Shown one piece after another: positions 14,811 to 53,207 of a DNA stretch of 64,000 nt (positions are counted from its first letter, which is position 1; each line of letters begins with the position of its first letter). The notes under the pieces were generated by a model. The model was not told the DNA's origin. It did no database searches and saw only the letters and a list, made by a program, of their open reading frames with translations. Source of the stretch: Impatiens glandulifera. Its lineage: Eukaryota > Streptophyta > Magnoliopsida > Ericales > Balsaminaceae. Made by a program: the position numbers and the translations under genes. The stretch is from the NCBI RefSeq assembly GCF_907164915.1, contig NC_061863.1, positions 12,044,376 to 12,108,375 on the forward strand, given 5' to 3'.

Positions 14811-14811
14811 G

Positions 14812-22860: not shown

Positions 22861-23164
22861 AGGTACAAATTAATTTGTACCTAATCAAACCAGTTACAAA
22901 GAAGAAGGATAAAAACAATATTTCCATATTTACCCTTAAACTTTTATTTTCAAAAACTTCATCCACCTCTAGAAACCTCATCCACCTTTTTCATTTCTTC
23001 TCATAAGAGAATTGCCATAACGTCCATTTAATCAACAAGACAACATAAAACAAACAAGCCGTTGAAAATTATTTGACTGGGTATTACGGTGGATTTCTGA
23101 ATACTTCTTTAATCTAAATTGTCACAATAAATATTCTCAAAAAGCATGACATTACCCAACTTTT

Positions 23165-24129
23165 TGTTGAAATTAAACTAATTCCATTAATTAAATGGAA
23201 ATGATATTTAGGCTAATGAAATTCACACCAAATTCAAATGTGAATTAAGTGTGAAATTAATCTAAATAAAATTCACATGAAATTCAAATGTGAATTAAAG
23301 TGAAATTAATCCAAATGAAATTCACATGAAATTCATGTGAATTAAAGTGAAATTAATCCAAATGAAATTAACATGAAATTCAAATGTGAATTAAAGTGAA
23401 ATTAATCCAAATGAAATTCACATGAAATTCAAATGTAAATTAAGGTGAAATTTCATCCAAATGAAATTCACATCAAATTCATTGTGAATTAAATTTGTTA
23501 ATTGTTACAATTAACATAAATGTCTTGAATGAGGCAATTAACAAATTATGTTAATTGCCATTGTAACTACAAAATATTTATTGTAGGATGTAACTTGCAA
23601 AGATGATGAAAGGGCAAGCAACGATAACCGTTGGGTGAATGGATGATGGATTAGTGACCGTTGGATTAAAGAATTGATTATGAGTTTAATTTTCAAATAT
23701 AAATATCCCTTCACATTGTATTCCTCTCCACACATTATCTCATCACTTCTCTCTCTAGAATTCTAAAGTCTTTCTTGTTCTTGTGAGTGTTCTTGTGTGT
23801 GTTCTTCGAGTTTCTTGACTCGACCATTTTTGTGCAAAACCCGGTGATTGTGATTCAGGTACTTTTGTTTAGTTCGCTGTTGTAGTGGTTTTTCTGTGCT
23901 AAATCATTGCAGGTTCCGTTGTACCCTGGGAAGCAGCCACCGACGAAACTCTCCAGCACAAACGGGAGACGGTGAAACTGTTTTAAGGGAACTGTGATTC
24001 CACAGGCCTCGGAGCAAACGAGAAGATTTTTCTTCATTTCTTAAATAATCTGTTGTATTTGTTTTATTATCATTGTATTATTTTCATATATCATTTACGT
24101 GTAATTTTTATGAGATAAGATTACCAACA
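23165..24129 (+). repeat. 5' LTR of the outer copia element
   Basis: TGTTGAAATTAAAC...GATTACCAACA. It contains an array of imperfect ~49-bp repeats (GAAATTCAAATGTGAATTAAAGTGAAATTAATCC) at about 23215-23490 and a TATA-like AATATAAATATCCC near 23694. It is nearly identical to 59994-60959. Directly after it (24130 onwards) I do not find the usual initiator-Met primer site TGGTATCAGAGC, so a different primer must be used. Confidence 0.92.
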
Positions 24130-24197: not shown

Positions 24198-25170
24198 ATG
24201 ACTACCGAAACACCTGCTTCTAACATGAGGATGTCAGTTCCAGTTAACCATCTGGATAAGTCAGAAAAGTTTGATGGCTCAAACTTTAAGAGATGGCAAC
24301 AAAAGATGTTCTTCTACCTCACGACCCTAAGTCTTGCGCGATTCCTCACGGAGGATCCTCCCACTCCCAAAATCGATGAGCCAAACGTGGCTTCATCGTC
24401 GGATGCAAACGTGCATCCGAAAGTTGATGTGCAAGCGGCTTCGGCCATTGATGTTTGGCACCATTCAGATTTTCTATGCAGAAATTACGTGCTGAATGGT
24501 TTATCAGATTCATTGTACAATGTGTACAGTGAAAAGAATACGGCTAAAGAACTATGGCAATCTCTTGAACGTAAGTACAAAACAGAAGATGCGGGTGCAA
24601 AAAAGTTTATGGTCGGTCGATTTTTGGACTACAAAATGCTAGATTCAAGACTAGTCATTAAACAAGTTCAAGAGATCCAAGTTATTTTGCACGAAATTCA
24701 TGCCGAGGGCATGAATTTGGGAGAAACTTTCCAAGTGGCTGCTATTATTGAGAAGTTGCCACCGTCTTGGAACGATTTCAAGAACTACCTTAAGCACAAG
24801 CGAAAGGAGATGAACGTAGAAGAATTGGTAATTCGTCTACGCATTGAAGAGGAAAATAAAAGTGCCTCAAAGAAATACTTTAGTCAACATGTGGCTAAAG
24901 CAAATGTGGTTGAACATGGTAAAGACAAGAAGAAACACAATTCTTTTGTCAAAAACCGGAGCCTTAATCCTAAAGGAGGAATCTCAAAGAAGTTCACGGG
25001 CAAGTGTTTCAATTGCAATGGCATGGTCCATAGATCTTCCGATTGCAAGAAGCCGAGAAGTGTTCGAGAGGCTAACTTGACTCAAGGATTATCGGAAATG
25101 GATCTATGTGCGATGATATCTGAGGTTAACTTGTTGGGATCTAATCCACGAGAGTGGTGGGTTGATACAG
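24198..25170 (+). CDS. Outer copia gag and start of protease (5' half of the split gag-pol frame)
   Basis: Open for 324 codons from the first ATG after the LTR. It contains a copia gag domain (FDGSNFKRWQQKM near residues 29-41, LWQSLERKY near 115-124), then a basic stretch and a CCHC zinc knuckle CFNCNGMVHRSSDC (about residues 270-283). It runs into the protease with WWVDT, where the frame is cut: the nested element begins right after the target copy TACAG (25166-25170). The frame resumes at 56523 with the rest of the protease motif. Gag packages the RNA into virus-like particles. No stop or frameshift lies before the insertion. Confidence 0.9.
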
Positions 25171-25172
25171 AT
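25166..25172. other. Target-site duplication and extra AT at the left edge of element A
   Basis: TACAG (25166-25170) is repeated at 56522-56526 on the right side of the insertion. Two extra bases, AT (25171-25172), lie between the left copy and the TG of the LTR. The same AT precedes the LTR at the polypurine-tract junction in this family. Confidence 0.85.
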
Positions 25173-26378
25173 TGATAGAAAAATTAAGTAAAGTTAATTT
25201 TCAGAACTGGCCAGACAAACTAAACAGTTGTTAACTTTCATGTGCAGGTACGGATCAAAGCGTATGAACCGGTTGGGGCATCGTAAACCGGTTGCTAAAA
25301 TACTTCAAAGAAACCTGTTCCAAGTGATCAAGCTAAAGATCAGAGGAACCGGTTCTCACTCTCTCAAGCGACCGGTCAGCAAAGACAAAAGCTCACATAC
25401 CAGTCGGAACATTCTCCACAAGAAACAAAACCGGAAAATTCACAAGAGTGACGTAGCATGACGAAAGAAACGTGTCTTGAAAGAATAAAAGAAGATCGCA
25501 TCCGATCGGAAGCATGCGAGGAAAGCAATGATGCTTTATTGATCTGAAGTTGACAATCTGAAGTGCATGTCCAACACGTGTCCAAATCTGAAAACCGATT
25601 ATGTCATCTTTCACTCAAAGTTGCCTGCATGACCGCCAAGTGTTGAGGAAGATGAAGCGTGCAAGCAACCTCTCTGCACCGGCGTGATAATGATCAACCA
25701 ATCCAGAAGAGAGAGAAGAAAAGTGACCGTTATCTCTTCTCAGCTATAAAAGGAAGATGAAACGTCTTCATTTAATGCAAGTTACAGATTACGAAAAACA
25801 AATCATAAAAGCATTAAGTTAGAGAGATAAACTCCTATATTCAAAACCGGTGTGTCTAAAACCGGAAGCTTTCTGTATCGTGTTGTGTTGAGTTATTGTA
25901 TTACATCAAAGTGTGAGTTGGTGTAACCGGCGAGTAGCGAGTTGGGCTCGACCGACAGTGTTGTTGTAACTATAAAAGTTAGTGGAGATTCTTCTCATAA
26001 CCTGAGAAGAAGGGGTGACGTAGGAGAGTTTGCTCCGAACATCCATAAAAAACCTTGTCTCGTGTTCTTTCTTTCGCTTTCATCACTTACCTACTTAATC
26101 TAACCTCAAACCAATCGTACTCCATAAACCGGTCCATTTATATCAATAAACCGACTCCTTCTAAAAACATCATCTAAAGTCGCATACGTTGCTTCAACCT
26201 GAAATAGACATTTCCGCCCTTGAATCCGATTCAAGAGTCTATGATAGCTTGTGTAGTGCTGAGAGCAGTTTTAGTCTCTAACCGGACTATCACCAAAAGT
26301 GTTGTGTGTGTTGTAAGCGGCCACCCTTCCTGAAACCGGAAACACCCCGGTCCTCCAAGGGCGTCCCCGATCCTAACA
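25173..26378 (+). repeat. 5' LTR of element A (subfamily I)
   Basis: Begins TGATAGAAAAATTAAG and ends GATCCTAACA. TATA box CTATAAAAGG at about 25744-25753. It is rich in AACCGG/CCGGTT palindromes. It is related to, but clearly distinct from, the 1260-bp subfamily II LTRs. Confidence 0.92.
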
Positions 26379-26380
26379 AG

Positions 26381-31540: not shown

Positions 31541-32148
31541 TTATGCATGCATGTAAGAAACCGGGATATGTGTTCAGGGAGAAGCTCTTACTTCTCAAAC
31601 CATATTCAAATAGGCCATTGATAAATCAAAAATGCTAACCGGAAGGAAGTCTCCGGTTATACCCGATTACTTCATAACCTCAAATCACATGTATACTTAC
31701 TATACGGCTGAAATAACCAGGTTGAAGTGGATGAGATAAATCAAAAGTTGAACAAATGTTGACGTAAGTCAACATTTCTTCACAATCGGAAAAACATCCT
31801 ACTAAAACCGGTCATGGAAAATCGCTTAGTACAAATGCATTATGGTCTGATGGAATGAACTTCTCCGGTTAACCTGGGATGACTAACTGAGTTCTCATGC
31901 ATATTTTGAAAAATGAAGCCTGTAATAAATAAAAACAGTCTACCACAATCGAGATGACGACATGTGTCCATCATCAAGAGAGGAAGACTCACATCTTGTC
32001 AATAGATATTTGTCATCATTAATATCTTGGTAATTATTAGATTTTGCCTTGAAAATAGACATTAGTTACTTCTACAAGTTAAAGCCTATTAAATGACTGA
32101 TGACATCATCAAGCATGCTTAAAACTATTAATCTAGCCGAACCCCTGG

Positions 32149-32159
32149 CTATATAAACC
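32149..32159 (+). promoter_or_regulatory. TATA box ahead of ORF X1, element A
   Basis: CTATATAAACC lies 78 bp before the X1 ATG and is conserved exactly at 46227-46237 in element B. A CTCTCTCTC-rich leader follows. Confidence 0.65.
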
Positions 32160-32236
32160 ACCCTTAAACCTTCAAAAATCCTCACAAGATTACTATTCAC
32201 AAATATCAGTCTTGAGCTTAACTCTCTCTCAAGAAC

Positions 32237-33052
32237 ATGAACTCCAACTCTCTAGCAAAGAAGATTCTATTGGCAGATTTTAACTCAATCTACCAATATG
32301 AAGATCACGAAGTTAAAGAAATGTTCTTAGCCGTCGAAAGAAGCGGGCTAAGAAGCTTCCTTGAAAATAGATTCATTCTCGACTACCTAGTAGTCGAGGA
32401 ATTCTTCCAAACCGCTAAGGAAGTGCATCGAGACATAATCGTTGCACAAGTCTACGGTCAGAAATTTCTGTTCAGCGAGACGGATTTCGCTGTATACTGC
32501 GGTTTGCCCACTGAAGGGGTGACCAACTTATCCTACTCTCCGGTGACCATGGAAGAGATGTGTCGCCGGTTCTCAGGATCTGACATCCCGGTTAAACCTT
32601 GGGGTGCTAAAAGCCAATTATCTCATAAGTACCAGCTTCTCTGTGAGATTCTGGGAAAGTCCATTTTGGGTAGAGAGAAAAGCTACTATTACACCCAAAG
32701 GCTTTTCGAGATGATGATTGCTGTAACGGTTGGGACACCGGTTAACTGGTCCTGGATCATCTTCAGCAACCTGAAGAAGATGCTCCTCTCCAACAAAACC
32801 GGCTACGCTCCTCAGCTGAGCGGTTTTTGTGCCAGTCTGGACATCCACTCCGGACCGTTCGTAACCCTCCATCCAAGGCATGTACTCACTAAAGAGAGAG
32901 TACAAGAGATGGTCGACCGGTGGGAAGCAGTCAAGGCAAAAGAAATCAAGCGGCCGAATCATCTAACGTCTAGCCTGTCCTTTCCTTCTGTCTTATTTCA
33001 TTTCTTTTACAAAACCGGTAATTTTGTTGTACTACCGGTTTTGGTACCATAA
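32237..33052 (+). CDS. ORF X1, element A: extra retrotransposon protein, unknown function
   Basis: 271 residues. The conserved domain covers residues 1-235: LLADFNSIYQYEDHE, RSGLRSFLENRF, VVEEFF, IIVAQVYGQKFLFSETDFA, YCGLPTEG, then FEMMIAVTVGTPVNWSWII and YAPQLSGFCASL. The same landmarks (DF..I, SGL..FL, V.EFF, V.GQ/GK...E..FA, GLPTEG, MxxAI, NW) occur in X2 and X3, so the three look paralogous. There is no signal peptide or membrane segment. Compared with element B a small deletion near 32950 shifts the frame, so the last ~20 residues are probably not original. GLPTEG followed by an acidic/aromatic stretch recalls plant mobile-domain and 'putative plant transposon protein' families; that link is inference. 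Confidence 0.7.
   Translation: MNSNSLAKKILLADFNSIYQYEDHEVKEMFLAVERSGLRSFLENRFILDYLVVEEFFQTAKEVHRDIIVAQVYGQKFLFSETDFAVYCGLPTEGVTNLSYSPVTMEEMCRRFSGSDIPVKPWGAKSQLSHKYQLLCEILGKSILGREKSYYYTQRLFEMMIAVTVGTPVNWSWIIFSNLKKMLLSNKTGYAPQLSGFCASLDIHSGPFVTLHPRHVLTKERVQEMVDRWEAVKAKEIKRPNHLTSSLSFPSVLFHFFYKTGNFVVLPVLVP
33011..33042 (+). terminator. 3' stem-loop after X1, element A
   Basis: AAAACCGGTA (33011-33020) pairs perfectly with TACCGGTTTT (33033-33042) around the 12-nt loop ATTTTGTTGTAC. ATTAATGAA follows. The same loop sits in the hairpin after X2 of element B on a different stem. Confidence 0.65.
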
Positions 33053-33281
33053 TTAATGAAGCATATTTCCTTCCACTTTAAATCTAAAATCTAAAATCAT
33101 AAATGATCAAACATTTAATGTGCCGTATCAAATCGAATCAAATCACTCTTGGAAACAGAAATATTCATTCTCAATGAGCATGCTTGACTTAATTCGACAA
33201 GACATGTCTTTATTCCCTTGACCAGACATAAACGGCTAGATTTTTCAAATATCTTCATTAAATGCATCCAACCGTTTCAAG

Positions 33282-33293
33282 CTATAAAAGGGG
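33282..33293 (+). promoter_or_regulatory. TATA box ahead of ORF X2, element A
   Basis: CTATAAAAGGGG, about 100 bp before the X2 ATG. It is conserved at 47395-47407 in element B (CTATAAAAAGGGG). Confidence 0.65.
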
Positions 33294-33383
33294 ACTCACT
33301 CCTCCATTTACAAAATACGCTTCCTACATTCCTTCTCTCTAAAACTTAAGAGTTCAGAAAATCTTTTCAAAACCTTTCTCACA

Positions 33384-34145
33384 ATGTCTGCCGAACTCAG
33401 AAACACCCTTATCGTCGATTTTGAGGACGTAAAGGACTGCAGATATCTTGAATGGGTCTTCCAACCGATCATAGAATCGGGGTTCCAAGGCTTTCTCAAA
33501 GGCTCAGACACTATCCTTGTGGAGGAGGTGTGTGAGTTCTTTAACAATGGTCATATTCTAGATGATGGCAGCATCCGCACCATCATTGACGGCCAATTCC
33601 TTCGGATTACCGAAGAGCAATTTGCCAACTTCTTTCACCTTCCAACCGAAGGCTTTTCAGACTTCCCGACGCCATTTCTTCCGGCTAAGGAAGACTTCCT
33701 CCAGATCTTCTCTTCCTCCAACGCTCCGATCAAGGACTTTGGAAAGAAAGAGAAACTTGCTTCTCACTACCAAGTCCTGCATGACTTGGTCCAAAGGTCT
33801 ATCATGGGCCGAATGCCAAACCAGAACTACAACCGGGAGGCTTTCGACATCATGATAGCCATCATCCGCAACTCCTCCATCAACTGGGCAACCTACCTCT
33901 TCAACAATCTGAAGACGCTAATAACCGCGTCAAGAGGAAGGACCAGTTTCGCCCCTCAAATCACCCGGCTTCTGATGTCTCAGCGCCGCAACCTTGGACC
34001 CGGTGTTCCGGTCGGACCGTCCAACACAATCACCATATCCATGTTGGAAAGATGGATATCGAGGATTGAGGAACGGAAACCTGAAAACACCGTGAACAAG
34101 TGGTACGAAAGAATGGTGGAAGGGGAATGGTTTAAAGACAACTAA
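33384..34145 (+). CDS. ORF X2, element A: extra retrotransposon protein, unknown function
   Basis: 253 residues and intact. LIVDFEDVKDCRYLEW, ESGFQGFLKGSD, VEEVCEFF, IIDGQFLRITEEQFANFF, HLPTEGFSDFPTP, then FDIMIAIIRNSSINWATYL and FAPQITRLLMSQRRN. It is collinear with X1 and X3 at the DF, SGxxxFL, EFF, GQ...E..FA, LPTEG and NW positions. No signal peptide or membrane helix. It keeps its reading frame although gag, pol and X3 of the same element are broken. The function is unknown. Confidence 0.72.
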   Translation: MSAELRNTLIVDFEDVKDCRYLEWVFQPIIESGFQGFLKGSDTILVEEVCEFFNNGHILDDGSIRTIIDGQFLRITEEQFANFFHLPTEGFSDFPTPFLPAKEDFLQIFSSSNAPIKDFGKKEKLASHYQVLHDLVQRSIMGRMPNQNYNREAFDIMIAIIRNSSINWATYLFNNLKTLITASRGRTSFAPQITRLLMSQRRNLGPGVPVGPSNTITISMLERWISRIEERKPENTVNKWYERMVEGEWFKDN

Positions 34146-34163
34146 CTTATCGGTTTTTCTTTC

Positions 34164-34198
34164 CGGTTTTTGGTCATTTTGCTATACGACCAAAACCG
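34164..34198 (+). terminator. 3' stem-loop after X2, element A
   Basis: CGGTTTTTGGTC (34164-34175) pairs with GACCAAAACCG (34188-34198), with one bulged T, around the loop ATTTTGCTATAC. It sits 19 bp after the X2 stop codon. Confidence 0.65.
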
Positions 34199-34414
34199 AT
34201 TGATGTTATCTATTTGTCATTTATGAAATGTCTAATTTTAGAAGTCTCCGGTTTTCATTCATATCTTTCCTTCCGGTTCTTTAAAATTTTAAACACAAAA
34301 CCTTAATGTTAAACGAAACTTCCGGTTAACGAGTCTTCAAGTAAAACCGGAATCTCAAGCAAAATGAAAAGTTTGAAAAATTTACCGCCCATTGATTCTC
34401 CTCTTTTACCGCCG

Positions 34415-34510
34415 AAAGTTACTGCAGTAACTTTTGGAGGGAAAAGTTGGCGCCAAAACATTAAGCGACGGTTCATCTTCTCAACCGTTCGGAACCGCCA
34501 TCTATATAAG
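34415..34510 (+). promoter_or_regulatory. X3 upstream region, element A: palindrome, E2F-like site, TATA
   Basis: A perfect 20-bp palindrome AAAGTTACTGCAGTAACTTT (34415-34434) is followed 12 bp later by TTGGCGCCAA (34447-34456), which fits the E2F consensus. The TATA box TCTATATAAG follows at 34501-34510. The same three blocks with similar spacing occur upstream of X3 in element B at 48567-48666. Confidence 0.6.
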
Positions 34511-34624
34511 TTCTAACCATCCCATTCAACACATGTGCTTTCTCTCTCTAAAATCTCCAGATCTTCAAAAGCTTTCTACTCTCCGATCATCATCGTTCTT
34601 CATCTCTTCTTCTCAAAATCTATC

Positions 34625-37600
34625 ATGGATCTAAGCAAATCTCCTTTCCAATGGATGTTGTAAGTTGATTTCGCGGATATTGATGAACACGCCGATGATA
34701 AAAACAAGGTTGTTCTTCAATCTTTAAGAGATTCTGGGTTAGAAGAATTTCTATCTGGTCCGTTCACCATTTATCCGGCGGCGGTGACGGAGTTTCTTGC
34801 GACGGCGACACTCACAAAAAGGAAGATCTCCGCCACAGTCAACGGGAAGAACATTCTGATCACCGAAGAGCTATTTGCTGAAGCTCTCGGTTTACCCAAC
34901 ACAGGTCTAGATCTCAAAACTGACCTAACCGCTGCAGAATCAAACGCTGTCCGGTTGGTGATATCATCTTCAGACCAGGATCTGGTGATTCACTCCAGCC
35001 AGAAGAATAAGCTAAAACCGGAGTTCAAGTGGTTGATGAACGTCATCGCCCGCTCACTTCAGGGAAGAGGAGGTAACTTCGACAACCTGACAAAACTTAA
35101 ACTCAAAATGCTGATGGCCATTGTCCGCGGTGACAAGGTGGATTGGGGATACGTTATTTTCGAAGAATTCTACCAGATGGTGATTAAGAAGGATGGTCGG
35201 GTTCAGGCCTTCGCAATGCAGATTGTGAAAATCCTTAAGTTCCTTAATGTAGAACTTGGTGAAGGAGAACCGCTCTCACTCATCAATATTCTCGACTCCG
35301 AGTCGATGATTGAGAGGCCGGAGAAAGCGGCCAAACCAAAATCCTCAAGAACAAAATCGTCCAAAGGGACCAGCTCTTCCGCTCCGGCTGAAGAAGTTCC
35401 CAAACAAAAGAAACCGAAAAGAAAGGCGGTTGAAACCGAAACCGCACAAGAACCGAAGGGGAGGAAGAAGTCATCTGCAAGGAAGAGTTCCAACATACCG
35501 GCGGACTCTGAGAAAACTCTTTCCTCGGACAATCCACCAGAAAGAACCGGGGACATCTTCCAACCCATCCCCATCAACACCGTTCGTCCCATTCTTGTTC
35601 CATCTAACTGACCAAGGCAAACCGAACCCTCGGGGAGCTAGAAAACCAAATCAGCTTCAAGGGAGGAAGCAGAGGTTAGTTTACACTCTGAAACCTCCAA
35701 ATCCCCAAGCAAACGAATTGAAGAGGTAATAGCCGATGTCGGCTTGAATACCTCAGAGGCTATTGAGGACGTAGTCCAAGACATAGCAAGAGAAACCGCA
35801 GACGATGTGTCGAGTCGTCATAAGTCAGTTGGTCAGGTTGAGATACCTGATCAAAGTGAAGTTCAACCGGTCGAAGAAACGGCCACAACCGCAAACATCA
35901 TTACACCTCCGGCTTAGGAAGGTAATTTTGAAGAACAGGAACCATCCGGTTTCGCGGGAGACAAGTCAGCTCCAGATAACCAATCGGCTCAAGATGGGCC
36001 ATCTGATTCAGCACTCATACCTGAAGGATCTATTCAGGTCAACAAAGGAAAAGGGGTCCTAGTTGAAGACTCAGTGGTGACAGGTAGAGGTACTCTGCAA
36101 ACCGGTCCTCAAACAGAAGTCATAAGGGCATTTATAGCAGAATCCTTAGAATGTGTTCTATCTCTATTATAAAGATAAATAACATAAAAGTTGTAAAAAA
36201 AATGCTTTATCAAATTCCCTATCCTTATAATTTTTTAAGGATGATGAACAGTGAATCCTTATATTTTGAGATTACTGTAGCATCCTTAAATAATAAAATA
36301 ATATATTTTCTCTTTCATGGCTAACAATAAATATTTAAATATATATGAATAAGTAATTAAGTGGTTGAGGTGGCTGAAAAATTGGTTGTTTTAATTAATA
36401 TTTAAATGATATATGGATAAAGATAAGGAAGCTGATGTAGAATAATTTATATTTTGATTCTCTAAAATATGGATATTATTATTTTATATTATTTTTAGGG
36501 ATACAAAATAGGGAAGCTGGTACAAATGCCCTAACCGGGGACGAGGTCTCTTTTACCGCAGAACAAGAAGATGAAATGTTCAAGGAACTTCTCAGGGACA
36601 TGAACAAGGGTGCCGCTGATGCAATAGCACCATACATCATGTGGGTAAAACTCCGTTGTGAAACAAAGAAATCCGATATGGCTCCAGGATTGAGCGGAAA
36701 CAAGCATTGGGACAGACTCATCAAGATGGAAGAAATGGCCCTCAAGCTAGCTCACAACGATCTCATCCAACCCGCATTCAGCAAAACCACGGTAATCCTT
36801 GAACATGCTCGGTTACAAGAAGTGGAGAATGCATTGAAAGAAGCTGAAGGGGCGACGCTGACTCCTATTGAAATGAGAATGATTGAAAGGTTCCATGCGG
36901 TGCGAGAAAGGCTCACACAAAACCTCGACCATCTTGATGCACAATGGAGAAAAGGGTGCCGAAGCCAACTCAATAACCCCGATCTACATCAAATCAAGCC
37001 ATTCTATGTGGTCGGGGAGTCATCCATAACAGCGGAGAACCTGGAACAAGATTCCTCTCAAACAGCTAAGGCTCCGGAGATCGATCAAATGAAGCAGGCG
37101 GTGGTTGATACAATTGATTCATGTCTTGGAAGTTACAAACCGCAACCGATGAGAGGATTGCAGCTGCTGAAGCTAATCTATCGAACACCATCCGGGGATC
37201 TATACAAACCGAAATCGCCAAAACCGTTCACACATCTATCAAGTCCATGATAGATGAAGCTGTGCAGACCTCCGTCAAATCCTTAATCGCAGAGTCAATC
37301 CAAACCGCAACCGCTCCACTGATAGACATGCTGCAGGCAATGGCTCTTCAAATTGGGGAGTTGTCAAAACTCCAAGTCAGCAAGACTCAAGCGCAAATCG
37401 AGTCTGATGCTGAAACCGCCAAGAGGCTGCAAGAAGAAGAAAGGAAAAGGGAACGGGTGCAGAAGGAGATTGAGGATAAAGATCATGAACTTGCCCAAAA
37501 GTGCAACGAGGAGGAACAGACAGGCATTCAGGAACCCACACCGGCTCAACCGTCCCACTCCATGAACACAAGAAACAAGAAGAAACGGAGCGCGGTTGCG

Positions 37601-37985
37601 AAGGTAATCAAGCAGGCAGAACAAAGAAGCCAAAGAACACTTGTACCGGTCGAGCTAAACGTGCAAATTGCTGCTGATGAAGAGGAAGATGATGAAGAAG
37701 AGGATATTGAAGAACTTAACCGGCGAAAGAAGAGGACGATTGAAGGTTCAACCGCAACTACAAGTTCAAGACCAATTATTGCTCCACCGACTCATCCGCC
37801 AAAACCAGTCTGTTCCGGTTTTGGATTTGGCAAAAGGACTCCGGGTTTCTCAAGCGTATGGACCGGCATTATGATTGACGTTGAAAGACGCGAAAGGGAG
37901 TGGAGGCAAGGGAAGAGGAAGAAAGAAGACGGCTTGAAAAGGAACTGGAAAAAGACCTTAACAAGGGGGGACCATCCAAACCTTA
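34625..37985 (+). pseudogene. ORF X3, element A: long paralogue with coiled-coil tail, broken
   Basis: Starts ATGGATCTAAGC but has TAA at codon 13, where element B has CAG. The X-domain then continues in frame (VNGKNILITEELFAEALGLPNTG near 34840-34910, VDWGYVIFEEF near 35140), followed by a Lys/Ser/Pro-rich linker, a frameshift near 35610 and the 406-bp MITE at 36126. A conserved helical region follows (YIMWVKLRCETKKSDM near 36640) and a second frameshift near 37140. The end is a strong coiled coil (EEERKRERVQKEIEDKDHELAQ near 37435-37500), an acidic patch and a tail ending GGPSKP at 37985. It is the largest of the three extra ORFs, roughly 1,000 codons without the MITE. Confidence 0.75.
36126..36531. 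mobile_element. Harbinger/Tourist-like MITE inside X3
   Basis: The 406-bp insert has imperfect terminal inverted repeats (GGGCATTTATAGCAGAATCC against GGGCATTTGTACCAGCTTCC on the other strand). It is flanked by TAA on both sides (36123-36125 and 36532-36534), the target type of PIF/Harbinger elements. It is AT-rich inside and non-coding. X3 of element B has no insertion at this place. Confidence 0.85.
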
Positions 37986-38125
37986 GTCTTTTTCTTTCTT
38001 TCATTCAAAACAATTTTATGTTTATCTATGCTTCAGAACTTGGTTATTTTATCATATTTCTCTATGTTAGTTTCCACATACCTTTTTAAAAAAAAAAATC
38101 AAACACACATTTTTGAAACAATTTT

Positions 38126-38392
38126 TAATAATCAAATCGCTAAAGTTAATTTTCAAACCGGCAACACATTACAAGTTTTGAATATTTATTCTAAATAATC
38201 AAAAAGGGAGAAATTGATAGAAAAATTAAGAAAGTTAATTTTCAAACCGGCCACACATTACGAGTTTTGAATATTTATTCTAAATAATCAAAAAGGGAGA
38301 AATTGATAGAAAAATTAAGAAAGTTAATTTTCAAACCGGTCACACATTACAAGTTTTGAATATTTATTCTAAATAATCAAAAAGGGAGAAAT
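38126..38392 (+). repeat. Three tandem polypurine/LTR-edge repeats, unit 89 bp
   Basis: AAAAAGGGAGAAATTGATAGAAAAATTAAG occurs at 38202, 38291 and 38380 (approximate starts), so the TG of the LTR edge appears at 38215, 38304 and 38393. Each unit holds the polypurine tract plus the first ~25 bp of the LTR. Only the last is the true LTR start. Multiple polypurine tracts are a known Sirevirus trait; inclusion of the LTR edge in each unit is what I see here. Confidence 0.85.
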
Positions 38393-39198
38393 TGATAGAA
38401 AAATTAAGTAAAGTTAATTTTCGGAACCGACCAGACAAACTAAACAGCTGTTAACTTTCATGTGTAAGTACAGATCAAAGCGTATGAACCGGTTGGGGCA
38501 TCGTAAACCGGTTGCTAAAATACTTCAAAGAAACCTGTCCAAGTGATCAAGCTAAAGATCAGAGGAACCGGTTCTCACTCTCTTAAGCGACCGATCAACA
38601 AAGACAAAAGCTCACATACCAGACGGAACATTCTGCACAAGAAACAAAACCGGAAAATTCAAAAGAGTGACGTAGCATGACGAAAGAAACGTGTCTTGAA
38701 AGAATAAAAGAAGATCGGATCCGATCGGAAGCATGCGAGGAAAGCAATGATGATTTATTGATCTGAAGTTGACAATCTAAAGTGCATGTCCAACACGTGT
38801 CCAAATCTGAAAACCGATTATGTCATCTTTCACTCAGAGTTGCCTGCATGACCGCCAAGTGTTGAGGAAGATGAAGCGTGCAAGCAACCTCTCTGCACCG
38901 GCGTGATAATGATCAACCAATCCAGAAGAGAGAGAAGAAAAGTGACCGTTATCTCTTCTCAGCTATAAAAGGAAGATGAAACGTCTTCATTTAATGCAAG
39001 TTACAGATTACGAAAAACAAATCATAAAAGCATTAAGTTAGAGAGATAAACTCCTATATTCAAAACCGGTGTGTCTAAAACCGGAAGCTTTCTGTATCGT
39101 GTTGTGTTGAGTTATTGTATTACATCAAAGTGTGAGTTGGTGTAACCGACGAGTAGCGAGTTGGGCTCGACCGACAGTGTTGTTGTAACTATAAAAGT
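38393..39198 (+). repeat. 3' LTR of element A, left part (806 bp)
   Basis: Matches 25173 onwards and stops after AAAGT (39194-39198), where the level 2 array starts. The remaining 399 bp are at 56123-56521. Confidence 0.92.
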
Positions 39199-40458
39199 TG
39201 ATAGAAAAATTAAGTAGATTAATTTTTGGAACCGGCCAGACAAACTAAACAGAAGTTAAACTTCATGTGCAGGTACTAAACAAACCGGAACCGGAAATCT
39301 GGTGTCAAGAACTGGTTACTACAACTTCAAAGAAACCGGCTTCAAGTGATCAAGCCGAAGGATCACAGGAACCGGCATCTCTATCTCAAGCAACCGGTTA
39401 ACGAAGAACAAAAGATCACACTCCAGCCGGATCGTAATGTACAAGACACAGAAACCGGAAAGTACAGATCAAGAGTCAGAAGTTTCAAATCTCAAGAGTG
39501 ACGTACCATGACGGAAGAAACGTGTATCGAAAGAATAAAAGAAGATCGGATCCGATCAGAAGCATGGGAGGAAAGCAATGATGCCTTGGTGATCCGATGC
39601 TGACGACCGGAAGCGGATGTTCAACACGTGTATCAATCTGAAATCCGGCTATGTCATCATCTGCTCAGAGTCACCTGCATGAATGTCAGGTGTTGAGGAA
39701 GATGAAACGTGCAAGCAACCCTTCTGCAAATAGGCGTGATGATGATCAACCAATCCAGAAGAGAGAGAAGAAAGTAGCCGTTAGCTATTTTCAGCTATAA
39801 AAGGAAGTCGAAACGTCCTCATTCAATGCAGTTCGGTACTTGCAGTTGTAAGCATCATAAAGTCAAAAAGTCATAAAGCATTAAATTCTAGAGAGATAAA
39901 GTCTTATATTCTAAAATCGGTTTGCCTAAAACCGGAAGTCATTTGTGTGATATTGTGTTGAGTTGTTGTATTACATCAAAGTGTGAGTTTGGTGTAACCG
40001 GCGAGTAGCGAAGTTGGGCTCGACCGGAAGTATAAATTGTAACTCTAAAGAGTTAGTGGAGATCCTTCTCATAACCTGAGAAGAAGGGGTGACGTAGGAG
40101 GGTTTGCTCCGAACATCCATAAACAAATTCTCTTGTCGTGTGTTCTTTCATCTCGCTTTCATTTCCCGCTGTCTTACCGTAAACCGCAAACCAATCATAC
40201 TCCCAAAACCGATCACTCACTCTCGTTAAACATCCTCCTTCTTAAACATCATCTAAAGTCGCAAACGTTGCTTCAACCTGAAACAGACACTTCCGCCCTT
40301 GAACACCGGTTCAAGAGTCTGTGACAGGTTGTGTAGTGCTGAGAAAGGTTTTAGTCTTTAACCGGACTATCACCAAGTTGTGTGTTGTTGTAAGAGGCCA
40401 CCCTTACTAGAAACCGGAAAAACACCCCGGTCCTCCAAGGGCGTCCCCGATCCTAACA
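39199..40458 (+). repeat. First subfamily II LTR
   Basis: TGATAGAAAAATTAAGTAG...GATCCTAACA, 1260 bp. TATA box CTATAAAAGG at about 39795-39804. The primer-binding site TGGTATCAGAGC follows at 40461-40472. Confidence 0.93.
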
Positions 40459-40460
40459 AG

Positions 40461-40472
40461 TGGTATCAGAGC
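40461..40472 (+). other. Primer-binding site of element B
   Basis: TGGTATCAGAGC, the standard initiator-Met tRNA primer site of plant copia elements, lies 2 bp after the LTR. Confidence 0.9.
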
Positions 40473-40499
40473 GAGGTTCTTAGCACTCAAGCAACCAAA

Positions 40500-42359
40500 A
40501 TGGTGGGAAGCATGACTCACAGCGACAAGCCGCCAATGCTAAACAGCGAAGCATTTAGCAGTTGGAAGAAGCAGATGTATCTACATCTGATAACATTGGA
40601 TGATGAGATGAGTCGAGTCCTGAAAGAAGGACCGATCAAGATTAACAAGGAGGAAAGCCAGTGGACAAGTGAAGATCGGAGAAGAAGCAACCTGGACAAC
40701 CATTGCATGAGGCACATCTATAAAGCCATAGATAACAACACTTTGAACAAAATATCAGAGTGCGAAAATGCAAAGGAAGCCTGGGAAACGATTATCCAGA
40801 TCCACGAGGGAAACGAAAGAACCAAGGAGAATAAAATCTTGGTGGCTACACAGAAGTATGAAAACATAAGGATGAAACCGGGAGAAAATATGAAAGAATT
40901 TAGCAACCGGTTCACCAGCGTAGTAAGCGAGTTTCAGACACTCGGAAAGAAGTATGACAACCGAGAAGTGATTATTAAAGCTCTAAGATCACTACCAAGC
41001 ACGTGGGATATCAAGACCATGGTGATGAGGGAGTCCAGCACCCTTGGGCAGATGAAGTTGCATGATGTGTTTGAGGACCTGAAAGCCTACGAATTCGAGA
41101 TCAATTCTCGGATTGAAGATGAAACATCTACATCAACCGCAACAAGAGCTTTAGTCACATCGGTGGAACCGGCGGCTCCAGTATCAACCGCACCGGCTCC
41201 AGTCAAAAACACCGATCAAATTACCGACGATGTGATGGCGATGCTAGCCCAGAAATTCGGGAAATTCATGAAGAAGAGCCAGCCACCATCTAATAATGAT
41301 TTTAATTATAATTATGTAGATAAATCAAACAAAAGATGCTATAACTGTGATGGTTTTGGACATTTCAGGTCAGAGTGTAGAAAACCAAGAAGAGATGATA
41401 GAAAACCGGAAGGAAATTATCAAGGGAATAATTATCAAGGCAGCCGGTATCAGGGTAATAACTATCAAGGAAACAACTATCGGGGAAAAAACAATAACCA
41501 ACGAAACGACTACCGAAGAAATGATGATCAACATGCTAATGAAGGAAAGGAGATCCAAAAGGCTCTCATTGCATCAGACGGTGGAAGCGAATGGGCATAT
41601 TCCGACAATGAAGATGGTGAAGAGAAAGTAACATGCTTCATGGCAAACGACGAAGAGGTATTTGATTTTTCTTCTGATGAATTTACTAAAGAAGATCTAG
41701 TTTCTGCACTCAACCAAATGGTTGCTGAGTTCAGAAATATATCTGCGTATATGCCAACACCTGTAGAAACTAAAAACGAACAAATAAATGATGAAAATGA
41801 TAAAATATATGAGATCAAAACACATGAACCGGATGAACTATTCTCGGATGATGAGGAGACAGTTCAACCGGGAATGGAAACTGATGAACGAGCGATGTAC
41901 GTTACGGCTGCGTGGGAGAGGTCACGTCAAGCAGTGAAACAAATGTGTAACTATAAACGACATCCGAAATGTAGATATGGTATCGACTATGATCCAAGTA
42001 AACAAAATGAAACGAAACAATCTAACGGGATGAAACTAACGAAAAATAATCTTCCATTTATTAAATTTGTCAAAAGCTCACAAACCGAAAATGACCTAAA
42101 ACCGGAAGAAACGCTTAAGTATGTAGGTCCTAACAAATCTGAAAAATGGCTTCATCCTGAGAGAAGGAAAGCCAACCGGAAACCAAACAAAAATAAAAAT
42201 AATAAAAACCGACATCAAAGAAGTCCATCACCACACAAGGCATTCTTGAGCAACGGCCAAGAAGTTAAGCCAAATATTATCAAAACCGCAACCGGGAAAG
42301 TGATCCGACTAATTCAAGTCTGGATCCCAAAGGGACTAATCAACCATGGACCCAACTAA
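40500..42359 (+). CDS. Gag of element B (Sirevirus-type), intact
   Basis: 619 residues from ATGGTGGGAAGC, the first ATG after the primer site. The frame is open further upstream into the LTR but those codons are not gag. The gag domain contains FSSWKKQMYLHL near residue 20 and AWETIIQIHEGNERTKENK near 95-115. A CCHC knuckle CYNCDGFGHFRSEC lies near residues 280-293, then NYQGN repeats (about 303-330), an Asn/Arg-rich stretch, an acidic Ser-rich region and a basic tail. Such a long gag C-terminal extension is usual in Sireviruses. The stop TAA at 42357 overlaps the pol ATG at 42346 in the +1 frame. Confidence 0.9.
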   Translation: MVGSMTHSDKPPMLNSEAFSSWKKQMYLHLITLDDEMSRVLKEGPIKINKEESQWTSEDRRRSNLDNHCMRHIYKAIDNNTLNKISECENAKEAWETIIQIHEGNERTKENKILVATQKYENIRMKPGENMKEFSNRFTSVVSEFQTLGKKYDNREVIIKALRSLPSTWDIKTMVMRESSTLGQMKLHDVFEDLKAYEFEINSRIEDETSTSTATRALVTSVEPAAPVSTAPAPVKNTDQITDDVMAMLAQKFGKFMKKSQPPSNNDFNYNYVDKSNKRCYNCDGFGHFRSECRKPRRDDRKPEGNYQGNNYQGSRYQGNNYQGNNYRGKNNNQRNDYRRNDDQHANEGKEIQKALIASDGGSEWAYSDNEDGEEKVTCFMANDEEVFDFSSDEFTKEDLVSALNQMVAEFRNISAYMPTPVETKNEQINDENDKIYEIKTHEPDELFSDDEETVQPGMETDERAMYVTAAWERSRQAVKQMCNYKRHPKCRYGIDYDPSKQNETKQSNGMKLTKNNLPFIKFVKSSQTENDLKPEETLKYVGPNKSEKWLHPERRKANRKPNKNKNNKNRHQRSPSPHKAFLSNGQEVKPNIIKTATGKVIRLIQVWIPKGLINHGPN

Positions 42360-45300
42360 ATGTGGGTACCAAAAAGTTGTAAATAATTGTTTGCTGCAGG
42401 TTAGGAGGAGCAATCGGTTGAGGAATTCTGAATGGTACTTGGACAGCGGATGCTCAAGACACATGACCGGAAACAAGGAGCTACTAACCGACATCAAGTA
42501 CGAAACCGGAGCACTCATCACATTCGGGGATAACTCAAAAGGTAAAACCGTGGGCAAGGGTAAGATTGTCCATGGTGAACTATCCATAAATAATGTGTTA
42601 TTAGTAGAAAAACTAAGTTTTAATCTATTAAGCATAAGCCAAATGTGTGATGTGGGCTATAAGGTTGAATTTCATAAAAACTCATGTTTAGTCAAAAATC
42701 AAAATGATGACACTTTGTTAACCGGTAACCGGATAGGAAACATTTACAAAGTAAACTGGAAAACTGATTTCGAAAAACCTGTGTGTATGATAGCCGGAAA
42801 TGATCCAAACTGGCTTTGGCATAAACGGTTAAATCACTTGAATTTCAAAACGATTAACTTTATTTGTTCAAAGGAATTGGTTCATGGCTTTCCAAATGTT
42901 AAATTTTCAAAAGATAAAGTATGTGCTGCATGTCAAATGGGAAAACAAGTGAAATCATCTTTTAAAAGTAAAGGAAATTATCAATCTGAAAGATGTTTAG
43001 AACTGTTACACATGGACTTGTTCGGTCCGGTTAGAATAACGAGTTTAGGAGGCATGCATTATACTATGGTAGTTATTGATGATTACTCCAAATTTACTTG
43101 GGTTACTTTCCTAGCTTCTAAGAATCAAGCCACTTCAAACCTGATTAAACTGATTTTGAGGATACAAAACGAAAAATCTATTCGAGTAAACAAAATTAGA
43201 AGTGATAGAGGAACTGAGTTTATTAACAGTAATTTAACTACTTTTCTTGACGATTCCGGTATTAGGCACGAGTTGTCTAGTGCCAGAACTCCTCAACAAA
43301 ACGGCCTGGCTGAGAGAAGAAACCGAACTCTCAAGGAAGCCGCAAGGTCAATGATAGCCGATTCGGGTATCGCTCAAAAGTTTTGGGCTGAAGCTATCAA
43401 CACCGCTTGTTATACACAAAATCGATCTCTAGTGACTAAACGGTTCTCAAAAACTCCTTTTGAAATTTATTTTGATAAAATTCCAAATGTACGGTATTTT
43501 CGAATTTTTGGTAGTAAATGCTTTGTTCATAATAACGGCAAGAAATATTTAACCGCGTTTGATGCTAAATCCGATGAGGGAATAATGTTGGGATATTCAG
43601 CTGTGAGTAAAGCATACCGAGTATACAATACTAGGACTTTAACAGTTGAAGAAACCGCACATGTTGTTTTCGATGAATCGGTTGAGCGAAACACTGCATT
43701 ACCCTTCGACCTTCACAACAGAATGGAAAACTTCAATATCTATTCTGATGATGAAGACGAGGTTCCGGTTTTTAGGCGCTTTGTCAAGGACCAAGCGGTT
43801 GATGTTGAAATTCAATCTGATCAAGCTGCTTTACCGCAGAAAGTTGACGCTTCAGTTTCTACTGAAGAAATCGGTCGGTCTGACTCTGTTCAACCTACCC
43901 ATCAGTCTAACCATGATCAGCCAGCCGAAAGCTTGGTAGACACGTCTCGGATTAACCTCAGAAGGAACAAAAATCATCCTCTTGAACTAGTAATAGGTAA
44001 CATATCCTCACCCGTCCGAACTAGGCAACAAAATTTGGATCACTATGGAAACTCTGCTTTCATATCACAAATTGAGCCGAAAAAGGTGGATGAAGCATTG
44101 TCAGATCCAGATTGGATCTTGGCAATGCAAGAGGAATTAAACGAGTTTGAGAGAAATAAAGTCTAGTACCTAGTTCCTAGACCGAAAAATAAACCGGTTA
44201 TAGGCACGCGATGGGTATTCAGAAATAAACTCAATGAAGACGGTTTAGTTACGAGGAACAAAGCCCGGTTAGTGGCTCAAGGCTATAAGCAGGAAGAAGG
44301 CATTGATTTTGAAGAATCATTCGCCCCTGTGGCTAGGCTTGAAGCCATTAGAATATTTTTAGCATATGCAGCTTTCAAAAAGTTTAAAGTTTATCAAATG
44401 GATGTAAAAAGCGCTTTTCTAAATGGTAAAGTAAATGAAGAGGTGTATGTTAATCAACCTCCAGGTTTTAAAAATCCAGAACATGAAAATCACGTTTACC
44501 GGCTGAATAAGGCCCTTTACGGTTTGAAACAAGCTCCAAGAGCTTGGTATGATACTTTGACTCAATTTCTATTTGATCACAAATTTACAATCGGTTCAGT
44601 AGACAAAACCTTATTTAAATTTGAAAGAAAGGAACAAATTTTACTTGTTCAAATTTATGTTGATGATATCATATTCGGGTCAACCGATCCAAAGCTATGC
44701 GACAAATTTTCGAAAATGATGACTGATAGATTTCAAATGAGTATGATGGGGGAAATGAGTTTCTTTCTAGGACTTCAGGTTAAGCAGATGGAAGCCGGAA
44801 TATTTATAAGCCAACCGAAGTATACAGCCGAACTGCTGAAGAGATTTGGGATGGATACTTATGCCGAAGCGGCTACGCCAATGAGTCCTTCCGTGAAGCT
44901 GGACAAAGATGATGATGGTCAAGCCGTTGACATCACAGCATATCGAGGAATGATCGGATCGTTGCTGTATCTCACGGCAAGCCGACCTGATATCCTGTTT
45001 GCGGTTGGAGTGTGCGGAAGGTTTCAAGCAAATCCAAAGCAATCTCATTATACGGCGGCTAAGAGAATCTTGAAATATCTGAAGGGAACTCAAGAAGTGG
45101 GACTCTGGTATCCAAAAGATTCGAGCTTCAATCTAATAAGTTACTCAGATGCCGATTACGCGGGATGCAAAATCGACCGAAAGAGTACAAGTGGAACCTG
45201 TCAGTTTCTGGGTGACCGGCTAGTTACCTGGAGCAGCAAGAAACAAACGTCCGTTGCAACGTCAACCGCAGAGGCGGAGTACTTAGCGGCTGGAAGCTGC

Positions 45301-45609
45301 TGTGCACAACTCCTCTGGATTCAACAGCAACTCAGGGACTTCGGAATAGAAGCAAAGGAGTCTCCAATCTTCTGTGACAACACCAGCGCCATAGCGATCA
45401 CGTACAATCCAGTGTTGCACTCAAGAACGAAGCATATCGACATTCGACATCATTTCATCCGGGAGCATGTTCAGGAGAAACACATCCGGCTGGAATATGT
45501 GTCGACCGAGCAACAAGTAGCGGACATCTTCACGAAACCGCTACAGGAAGCTAAGTTTTCACATTTTCGAAATATTTTGGGCCTTACTAATTTAAATCAA
45601 TTGATATAA
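42346..45609 (+). pseudogene. Pol of element B, one amber codon from intact
   Basis: 1087 codons with a single in-frame TAG at 44164, where element A has TGG. Protease motif LDSGCSRHMTG near residue 31; integrase HHCC near 160-195 and catalytic D, D, E (MDLFGPV, RSDRGTEF near 285, GLAERRNR near 322); RT with [12 protein letters not shown] near 770; RNase H with [17 protein letters not shown] near 935 and [11 protein letters not shown]. The amber codon separates protease-integrase from RT-RNase H. It could be a disabling mutation or rarely read through; element A does not share it, so I take it as a mutation. Confidence 0.92.
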
Positions 45610-46226
45610 TCATGATGCATGCCTGTATACAAAACCGGGATATGTGTTCAGGGAGAAGCTAAGGCTTCTCAAACCATATTCAAATAGGCCATTAATGAAA
45701 TCAAACATACTAACCGGGAGGAAGTCTCCAGTTATACCCGATTATCTCATTATCTTCAAATCAAATGTATGTTTACTTAACGGTTGAAGTAACCAGGTTG
45801 AAGTGGATAAAACAAATCCAAAGTTGAACAACTGTTGATATTAATCAACTTTTCTTCATAAACGTAAATATCCTACTAAAACCGGTCATGGAAAACCGCT
45901 CAATACATATGCACTCTGGTCTGATGAAATGAACTTTTCCGGTTAACATGAAATGACTGACCGAGTTTTCGTGCATGCTTTGATAAATGAAGCCTGTGAT
46001 TAACTAAAAACAAGTCTACCTCAATCGAGATGACGACATGTGTCCATCATCAAGAGAGGGAGGCTTACATCTTGTCAATAGATACTTTTCATCATTGCTA
46101 TCTTAGTAATTATTAGATTTACCTTGGAAATAACCATTAGTTACTTCAACAAGTTAAGTCTATTTAATAGGCAATGACATCATCAGGCATGCTTAACTTC
46201 ATTTAATACCAAGCCGAATCCACGGG

Positions 46227-46237
46227 CTATATAAACC
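46227..46237 (+). promoter_or_regulatory. TATA box ahead of ORF X1, element B
   Basis: CTATATAAACC, 90 bp before the ATG and identical to the element A site at 32149-32159. Confidence 0.65.
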
Positions 46238-46326
46238 ATGCTTAATCCTTTGCAAAAACATCACAAGCTCACTATTCACAAGCCTAACTCTTGAGATAAA
46301 ATCATCTTTCTCTCTCACAAACAAAC

Positions 46327-47089
46327 ATGAACTCCAACCCTCTAGCCAAGAAGATCCTACTGGCAGACTTTGAATCAATCTATCAGTATGAGGATCATGA
46401 AGTCAGGGAAATGTTCTTAGCCATTGAAAGGAGTGGGCTAAGAAGTTTCCTTGAGAACAGGTTCATCATCGACTACCTTGTAGTCGAAGAACTGTTCGAA
46501 ATCGTGAAAGAAGTGCACCGAGATATACTCGTTGCACAGGTTTACGGCCAAAAATTCCTTTTCAGCGAGACGGATTTCGCTGTCTACTGCGGTTTACCCA
46601 ATGAAGGGGTAACCGATCTAACCTATTCTCCGGTGACAATGGAAGAAATGTGTCGCCGGTTCTCTGGATCTGACATTCCGGTTAAACCCTGGGGTGCTAA
46701 GAGTCAACTTTCTCATAAGTACCAGATTCTCTGCGAGATTCTGGGAAAATCTGTCTTGTGCAGAGAGAAAAGTTACTATTACACTCAAAGGATCTTCGAG
46801 ATGATGATCGCTGTAACGGTTGGGACACCGGTTAACTGGTCCTGGATCATCTTCAGCAACCTGAAGAAGATGATTCTCTCCAACGATAACCGGATACGCT
46901 CCTCAGCTGAGCGGTTTCTGCGCAAGTCTGGAGATTCACACCGGAGCTTTCGTCACTCTGCATCCAAGGCACGTGCTCACCAAAGAACGAGTACAGGAGA
47001 TGATCGACCGTTGGGAAGCGGTTAAAGCTAGAAGAATTCAAGCTGCTGAGGCTTCAAATGCTCAAGCGGCTGAGTCGACAAATGTCTAA
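46327..47089 (+). pseudogene. ORF X1, element B: extra retrotransposon protein, one frameshift
   Basis: Collinear with the element A copy (LLADFESIYQYEDHE, RSGLRSFLENRF, VYGQKFLFSETDFA, YCGLPNEG, VTVGTPVNWSWII). About 190 residues are in frame. Near 46885 the text ACGATAACCGG replaces ACAAAACCGG and shifts the frame. In the corrected frame homology continues to the TAA at 47087, giving a natural C-terminus rich in Ala, Glu and Gln that the element A copy has lost. It is therefore the better guide to full length (about 253 residues). Confidence 0.75.
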
Positions 47090-47122
47090 AACCTGTCCTT
47101 TGTCTTTTTCTTTTCCTCTTAC

Positions 47123-47154
47123 AAAACCGGTACTTTTGTTGTAATACCGGTTTC
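47123..47154 (+). terminator. 3' stem-loop after X1, element B
   Basis: AAAACCGGTA (47123-47132) pairs with TACCGGTTTC (47145-47154) around the loop CTTTTGTTGTAA. ATTAATGAA follows downstream, as in element A. Confidence 0.65.
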
Positions 47155-47394
47155 TGTACTTCCATTAATGAAACAGATTTCCTTTCTTTCCAAATCAAAA
47201 TCTACAAACATTCAATGCGTCGTATCAAAATGAATCATTCTACTCTTGGAAACATAAACTCTTAAAGAGCATGCCTGACTTGATTTGACAAGACTTGCTT
47301 TTATTCTCTTGGAAAAATCACAAAATAATTAATGCCTAAGCATAAACGGCTAGATTTTCAAATCCTTGCAATAAATGTTGTCATTCATTCCAAG

Positions 47395-47407
47395 CTATAA
47401 AAAGGGG
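47395..47407 (+). promoter_or_regulatory. TATA box ahead of ORF X2, element B
   Basis: CTATAAAAAGGGG, about 100 bp before the X2 ATG, matching element A. Confidence 0.65.
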
Positions 47408-47505
47408 TTCAACCTTCTTCCTTCAAATCACGCCTTCAAGCATTCCTCTCTCTAAGAATTCAAAAGCTTAAGAACTCTCCTAAGCCTTCTTCACTCTTCA
47501 TCATC

Positions 47506-48264
47506 ATGTCTGCTGAAATTAGAAACACCCTGATCATCGACTTTGAAGACATCAAACATAGCTACGACCACGAATGCATTTATCAACATGTCATAGCTTC
47601 TGGCCTGCAAGGCTTCCTAAAGGGTTCGGACCTCATCCTCGTGGATGAGGTGTGCGAATTCTTTAACAACGGTCACGTTCTGGATGATGGCAGCATTCGC
47701 ACCATCATCGACGGTCAGTTCCTCCAGTTTTCTGAGGAAGAATTCGCCACATTCTTTCACCTTCCAACGGAAGGTTTCTCTGATTTTCCGACGCCGCATC
47801 TACCGGCTAAGGAAACATTTTTCAAGATCTTCTCCTCCTCCTACGCTCCTGTTAAGGACTTCGGGAAGAAAGAAGATCTCGCTCCTCACTACCAAGTCTT
47901 TCACGACTTGGTTCAAAGGTCTATCATAGGCCGAATGCCCAACCAGAACTACAGCCGGGAGGCATTTGATATTATGATAGCCATCATCCGCGAAACCGAC
48001 ATCAACTGGTCGTCCTATCTATTTAATAAGCTGAAGCAGCTTCTGACCGGTAAGAGGGGAAAGATCAGCTACGCCCCTCAGATCACTCGATTCCTCATGT
48101 CCAAACGTCGCAACCTTGGAAAAGGTGTTCCGGTTGGTTCCTTCAACACCATCACTATAGAAATGGTCTATAAATGGGTGTCAAGGATTGAGGAACGGTC
48201 TCCCCAAAACACCATGGAAAAGTGGTATCAAAGGAGGCTGGAAGGAGGATGGTTCACTGAATAA
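47506..48264 (+). CDS. ORF X2, element B: extra retrotransposon protein, unknown function
   Basis: 252 residues and intact; same length and landmarks as the element A copy (LIIDFEDIKHSYDHE, ASGLQGFLKGSD, IIDGQFLQFSEEEFATFF, HLPTEGFSDFPTP, IRETDINWSSYL, YAPQITRFLMSKRRN). The differences from element A fall in both conserved and variable positions, but the frame is kept. No signal peptide, membrane segment or known catalytic motif is visible. Confidence 0.75.
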   Translation: MSAEIRNTLIIDFEDIKHSYDHECIYQHVIASGLQGFLKGSDLILVDEVCEFFNNGHVLDDGSIRTIIDGQFLQFSEEEFATFFHLPTEGFSDFPTPHLPAKETFFKIFSSSYAPVKDFGKKEDLAPHYQVFHDLVQRSIIGRMPNQNYSREAFDIMIAIIRETDINWSSYLFNKLKQLLTGKRGKISYAPQITRFLMSKRRNLGKGVPVGSFNTITIEMVYKWVSRIEERSPQNTMEKWYQRRLEGGWFTE

Positions 48265-48290
48265 ACCTTTCATTTTATTCTCTTTTCCGT

Positions 48291-48318
48291 TTCTGGTCAT
48301 TTTGTTGTACGACCAGAA
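48291..48318 (+). terminator. 3' stem-loop after X2, element B
   Basis: TTCTGGTC (48291-48298) pairs with GACCAGAA (48311-48318) around ATTTTGTTGTAC. The loop is the same as after X1 in element A, on an unrelated stem. Confidence 0.65.
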
Positions 48319-53205: not shown

Positions 53206-53207
53206 AG

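Follow-up and report, generated by a model that had tools for sequence, protein, structure and literature searches.

Sireviruses have been estimated to account for ~21% of the maize genome (PMC3599292), and an extra open reading frame (ORF) named eORF-3'F was reported in 74% of SIRE elements (PMC6317226). The extra gene of Sireviruses is referred to as envelope-like without a demonstrated function, and the RM boxes of these elements, which contain CGG-CCG cores, are located in the long terminal repeat (LTR) and before the ENV gene and vary between elements, are described in the same report without a single or common binding factor having been found (PMC2829016). In another class of mobile elements, the proteins VANC21 and VANC6 were reported to have different short target motifs, which have accumulated in tandem repeats within the respective elements (PMC5735166). 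Here we describe a 64-kb stretch of the genome of Impatiens glandulifera (Himalayan balsam), hereafter the window, that represents a nest of copia retrotransposons, with element B inside the 3' LTR of element A and element A inside element C. Elements A and B contain Sirevirus-type sense ORFs between pol and the 3' LTR, which constitute three paralogous genes designated X1, X2 and X3.

Paralogy of the X1, X2 and X3 genes

The first-pass annotation of the window had noted three extra sense ORFs after pol in both elements, and these genes are indeed present on the plus strand. In element A, the intergenic region following pol (31541-32236) precedes X1 (32237-33052; 271 residues), which is followed by a second intergenic region (33053-33383), X2 (33384-34145; 253 residues), a third intergenic region (34146-34624) and X3 (34625-38089; start approximate). 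In element B, the pol-X1 intergenic region (45610-46326) is followed by X1 (46327-47025; 232 residues), X2 (47506-48264; 252 residues) and X3 (48785-50863; 692 residues). The count of three genes per element was correct, whereas both X3 frames are damaged. The frame is broken in element A, with open pieces at 34784-35611, 36576-37250 and 37121-38089, the last of which probably extends beyond the gene end, and in element B it is cut at ~50859, where it continues into a piece of gag that is an exact copy of 41024-41472 (449 bases). Because of this truncation and fusion, the stretch 45610-51580, previously regarded as a separate copia element, is partly chimeric, although it carries X1 to X3 after pol.

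The deduced X1 and X2 proteins share 33% identity over 226 columns (BLASTP E 2e-32), X1 and X3 share 27% (E 1e-19) and X2 and X3 share 28% (E 4e-20), and an alignment of the six X proteins contains 15 invariant columns. Sequence comparison relates the common domain to the Pfam family PF20167 (Transposase_32). X1 of A (15.8 bits) and both copies of X2 and X3 score between 14.5 and 34.6 bits against this profile and a search with X1 of B gave no match, whereas relatives from the same clades elsewhere in the Impatiens genome exceed the Pfam cut-off of 45 (locus L013 with 50.1 bits and locus L022 with 48.7 bits). With E values up to 10, PF20167 was matched by 20 of 23 X-family members and DUF1985 by none of them. 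A search of NCBIfam yielded weak rows far below the cut-off, and PADLOC gave no match. None of the 188 candidates from a single-sequence search with X2 reached E <= 0.001, whereas alignment-based searches retrieved homologues.

The X3 protein contains an acidic and hydrophilic linker (isoelectric point 4.73; grand average of hydropathy -1.26) and a long C-terminal part, and a basic run resembling a nuclear localization signal was seen near residue 266 in the copy at locus L041. In agreement with the earlier view that the X proteins are non-membrane proteins, a simple hydropathy scan detected no membrane segment in X1 to X3, the highest Kyte-Doolittle mean over 19 residues being 1.27 (X1 of A).

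Conservation of the gene order and age of the triplication

A genome search with X2 provided 18,615 first-look candidates, and 150 places were scored, all of which matched. Twenty loci of the same family (family I) were retrieved together with 7.6 kb of surrounding sequence; they were picked from the best X2 matches and are biased towards an intact X2. The gene order pol, X1, X2, X3 is present in all 20 loci, and ten of them have an uninterrupted X3 of 942 to 953 residues. Moreover, 150 places were scored in a genome search with PF20167, and 30 of these were made into loci (L009 to L038). Their X-domain genes are mostly 33-45% identical to X3 of the window, with 29% at L016 and 67% at the intermediate locus L032. 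An X2-like gene is located upstream in 25 of the 30 loci and a gene labelled X1 in two more (L017 and L029); neither was seen upstream in the remaining three (L022, L030 and L031). The upstream DNA of three divergent loci contains pol (78-87% identity over longer pieces) followed by X1 (34-38%) in each case, so that the X gene order first noted in the window was found again in both related and divergent elements.

In a tree of 37 rows, four of which have a stop written as X, the X3, X2 and X1 genes each form one clade spanning both families (support 100/100, 99/98 and 96/93, respectively); in another X tree, 59 of 92 pieces were left out as being shorter than 170 residues or containing stops. 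As members of both families group together within each of the three X clades, the triplication is older than the divergence of the families. The pairwise similarities, the common Pfam family and the trees uniting two divergent element families bear out the earlier proposal that one ancestral gene was triplicated and diverged.

At locus L022 (1396-1965), an X1-like gene above the PF20167 cut-off was found with no X2-like gene seen upstream, which may indicate a third family. In Dorcoceras hygrometricum, 382 proteins with the homologous domain were detected at E <= 0.001, and 29 of the best 120 of these 382 carry a PF20167 note. The sampled Dorcoceras proteins cluster in a single clade separate from X1, X2 and X3, both in a tree of 25 non-redundant rows, taken from 119 of the best 120 proteins with a domain of at least 150 residues, and in a second tree of 14 domain rows. 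Twelve Dorcoceras proteins have more than one domain match, mostly as overlapping pieces. The names given to these X-domain proteins, 'dystroglycan-like' in Dorcoceras and 'protein DEK-like' for the matches in Impatiens, are probably mislabels of transposon proteins.

Purifying selection on the X genes

The ratio of nonsynonymous to synonymous substitution rates (dN/dS) between elements A and B is 0.073 for X1, 0.146 for X2, 0.094 for the N-terminal domain of X3 and 0.285 for the X3 linker, compared with 0.085 for gag and 0.033 and 0.019 for pol. The C-terminal domain of X3 is 60% identical between the two elements (dN 0.27, dS 1.82). A frame-shifted control with X1, X2, the X3 N-domain and pol gave values of 1.5 to 4.6. 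Among the 20 family I copies, the mean dN divided by the mean dS is 0.079 for X1, 0.085 for X2 and 0.083 for the X3 N-domain, and stops are present in two, one and one of the copies, respectively. All three X genes were under purifying selection of about the same strength as gag. The earlier suggestion, made for X2, of selection acting before the death of the element is consistent with these ratios, which are not near 1 in either comparison.

Putative promoters of the X genes

The intergenic DNA of elements A and B contains three TATAWAW motifs each, one per X gene and 87 to 127 nucleotides upstream of the ATG. They are located at 32150, 33283 and 34503 in A and at 46228, 47396 and 48658 in B. 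Elsewhere in A and B, respectively, the motif occurs two and zero times in gag-pol, once and once in the X genes, and twice and twice in the LTRs. In family I, including A and B, TATAWAW is present at positions -170 to -60 in 21 of 22 X1 genes and in all 22 X2 and all 22 X3 genes. The chance of this placing was estimated by first-order resampling as 0.02 to 0.10 per gene. Random anchors have the motif in 4.6% of cases in gag-pol of A and in 33% in the first 23 kb of the window; due to the latter value the motif is weak on its own, and it is the placing of one per gene that counts. Additionally, TATAWAW precedes X3 in 21 of the 23 loci among L009 to L038 that have a recognisable ATG (seven have none), as well as X1 in L059 and L061. 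Some rows of the divergent family (family II) that were labelled X1 or X2 are cross-matches to another X gene and were left out of these counts. The motif data support the view that each X gene apparently possesses its own putative TATA promoter. An internal promoter of the Sirevirus ENV gene was proposed earlier, without being identified in that report (PMC2829016).

Enrichment of the AACCGG motif

An open count of 6-mers in elements A and B ranked AACCGG first among all observed 6-mers in every compartment, with 26 observed versus 0.9 expected in the LTRs, 19 versus 0.6 in the intergenic DNA, 35 versus 3.0 in gag-pol and 28 versus 3.3 in the X genes. Element A contains 68 sites (4.45 expected) and element B 57 (3.88 expected), compared with a maximum of 11 each in 200 resamples. 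The density reaches 10-11 per kb in the LTRs, in contrast to 0.13 in the first 23 kb of the window and 0-0.7 in parts of C and the right flank; pol of element C contains no site. In the intergenic DNA of A, five sites are located before X1, none between X1 and X2 and five within 34146-34615 before X3, and four precede X1 in B. In addition, every repeat unit before the 3' LTR contains one AACCGG (3/3 in A and 2/2 in B). In the 20 copies, AACCGG occurs at 6.2 per kb in intergenic slices and at 4.0 per kb in X-coding slices. The sites in gag-pol are intact between A and B in 14 of 17 cases, versus a fraction of 0.51 for other CpG 6-mers (p 0.0075), and four of five before X1 and three of five before X3 are intact. 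The motif preference differs between the families, with AACCGG at 1.98 per kb in the divergent family versus 5.53 in family I, and ACCGAT at 1.89 versus 0.47. As a separate observation, GCATGC is likewise over-represented in the intergenic stretches (31541-34624 and 45610-48784), with three occurrences in A (0.14 expected) and four in B (0.20 expected).

Predicted fold and possible role of the X proteins

Structure models were obtained for X2 of B and for the N-domain of X3 of B, with predicted local distance difference test (pLDDT) scores of 79.5 and 75.4, respectively. The sole fold relative found for these models with Foldseek is the anti-silencing protein VANC21 (PDB 9lnj), at ~8% identity. 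Foldseek rows below VANC21 had a probability of 0.21 or less among those shown and were set aside. When solved structures were searched with profiles, the rows obtained were weak and unrelated and included no VANC21 chain, and a viral structure library contained no match at E <= 0.001. The models support a putative VANC-like fold of the X domains.

As a whole, the data are best explained, in our tentative opinion, by X1 to X3 being nuclear factors of a VANC-like kind, which bind clusters of AACCGG and oppose the silencing of their own element family. The X genes would then descend from an old tandem triplication of one PF20167-domain accessory gene in a SIRE-type copia element, and each gene would be expressed from a TATA promoter of its own. 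The proteins would be soluble, probably nuclear, and sequence-specific DNA binders with a VANC21-like fold, and the linker and long C-terminal part added in X3 could recruit partners. Their likeliest targets would be the clusters of AACCGG found in the LTRs, in the X promoters and in the repeats preceding the 3' LTR. Binding may counter silencing of the element family as VANC does for VANDAL transposons, and the three paralogues would share out targets or steps.

Some observations weigh against or limit this explanation. In the LTRs, A and B share only 4 of the 13 AACCGG sites intact, a fraction no better than that of other 6-mers (0.36-0.39), although each LTR has 13 sites. Most AACCGG sites are asymmetric, unlike the palindromic RM boxes, and the palindromic form AACCGGTT occurs five times in A and three times in B. 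Moreover, TATAWAW is absent before X2 of family II in 17 of the 18 rows listed, with the shorter TATAWA at L015, and CTATTTAA takes its place in 16 of these 18 rows, as counted by eye.

The same fold, promoter and motif evidence would also fit DNA-binding nuclear factors acting as ordinary transcription activators or as nuclear-import or integration-site factors, and we regard this as unlikely, yet a serious alternative. Fold similarity shows no function, and the AACCGG sites of the LTRs are located upstream of a TATA box; that the sole fold relative found is an anti-silencing protein is the only point separating the two. It is rather improbable that the AACCGG clusters are sites of a host factor and that the X proteins have another role, as the motif preference shifts along with X protein divergence in the two families compared; this alternative draws on the likening of Sirevirus RM boxes to stress-related host factor sites (PMC2829016) and on AACCGG also filling gag-pol. 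Envelope-like, movement, chaperone or particle-assembly functions, as suggested for Sirevirus ENV-like genes (PMC7264820), agree with the position after pol in a SIRE-type element and with the long C-terminal part of X3, but the hydropathy scan and the fold match to a DNA-bound protein make them quite improbable. That the X ORFs are functionless passengers, such as captured host sequence, is hardly credible even though SIRE extra ORFs form 19 groups with little mutual similarity and a questioned function (PMC6317226), since the selection data contradict it for the time before insertion and the gene order was kept across deep divergence.

Architecture of the window

Element C is a copia element with LTRs at 23164-24129 and 59993-60959 (10 differences in 965), gag at 24198-25175 and pol at 56580-59492. 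Element A is flanked by TACAG on both sides. Its 5' LTR (25171-26379, plus strand) contains 13 AACCGG sites and two TATAWAW motifs, and its 3' LTR is split into 38391-39199 (plus strand) and 56117-56521. Three 89-bp repeat units at the edge of the 3' LTR (38131-38420, plus strand) each contain a polypurine run. Element B (39194-56118) has three LTRs, the first of which (39194-40458, plus strand) contains 13 AACCGG sites, and a pair of 92-bp repeat units (51770-51973, plus strand) that precede its second LTR. Its gag-pol ORFs (40380-45609, plus strand) encode integrase and reverse transcriptase domains, and the two pol ORFs show the copia order, with rve before RVT_2. Element A is older than B, as its two LTRs differ at 26 of 1206 positions and pairs of B LTRs at 1, 6 and 7 of 1260. 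Element B is a three-LTR composite of a longer part (gag, pol, X1, X2 and the cut X3 joined to a gag piece) and, 3' of it, a short derivative of the type LTR-gag-X3 tail-LTR. The left part of the window contains tandem repeat arrays at 1288-2145, 3586-5801 and 14811-15705, and a further array lies at 23215-23493 in the LTR of C.

Elements A and B are assigned to the SIRE-type (Sirevirus) copia elements on the basis of their structure and of reverse transcriptase features typical of this lineage. The polypurine tract AAAAAGGGAGAAA recurs in the 89-bp and 92-bp units of A and B, which thus contain multiple identical tracts before the 3' LTR. Such tracts are a described feature of Sireviruses (PMC2829016).

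Comparison with known systems

The predicted VANC-like shape of the X proteins hints at a role for the puzzling 'envelope-like' genes of such elements. It is conceivable, if doubtful, that the Sirevirus 'envelope-like' genes in general encode VANC-fold sequence-specific anti-silencing proteins rather than envelopes, with CCGG-type clusters of LTRs and extra-gene promoters as their sites, and that in Impatiens this gene was triplicated with three promoters. Should the extra gene and the RM boxes form one VANC-like system, a single, testable explanation would cover two questions, and anti-silencing of the sequence-specific kind described for VANDAL DNA transposons would also operate in retrotransposons. 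The triplicated genes would provide a natural series in which to study how such proteins and their DNA motifs change in concert. An outside hint is the reported strong fall of CG methylation between the LTRs of sunflower SIRE elements (PMC12844716). Our search of open-licence literature turned up no copia element reported to carry a triplicated set of paralogous extra genes, and no Sirevirus extra gene to which a VANC-like fold had been ascribed.

The Sirevirus envelope-like gene is reported to be single and to include transmembrane and coiled-coil parts (PMC3414828), whereas elements A and B contain three paralogues without a membrane segment. The PF20167 domain reported in the 3' extra ORF of a sunflower Athila (gypsy) element is a single one (PMC11728184), in contrast to three in a copia element here. 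Like the published RM boxes, AACCGG is short with a CCG/CGG core, is frequent both in the LTR and upstream of the extra gene and has a TATA box nearby, but RM boxes are described as palindromes of 10-20 bases (PMC2829016) and AACCGG also occurs in coding DNA. As in VANC systems, A and B carry many copies of a short motif in non-coding DNA and in tandem repeats. VANC21 of Arabidopsis VANDAL21, however, is encoded by a Mutator-like (MULE) DNA transposon as one protein per element and its target motif differs from AACCGG, whereas the X proteins are encoded by a copia retrotransposon as three. X1 to X3 are not classed as members of the VANC family.
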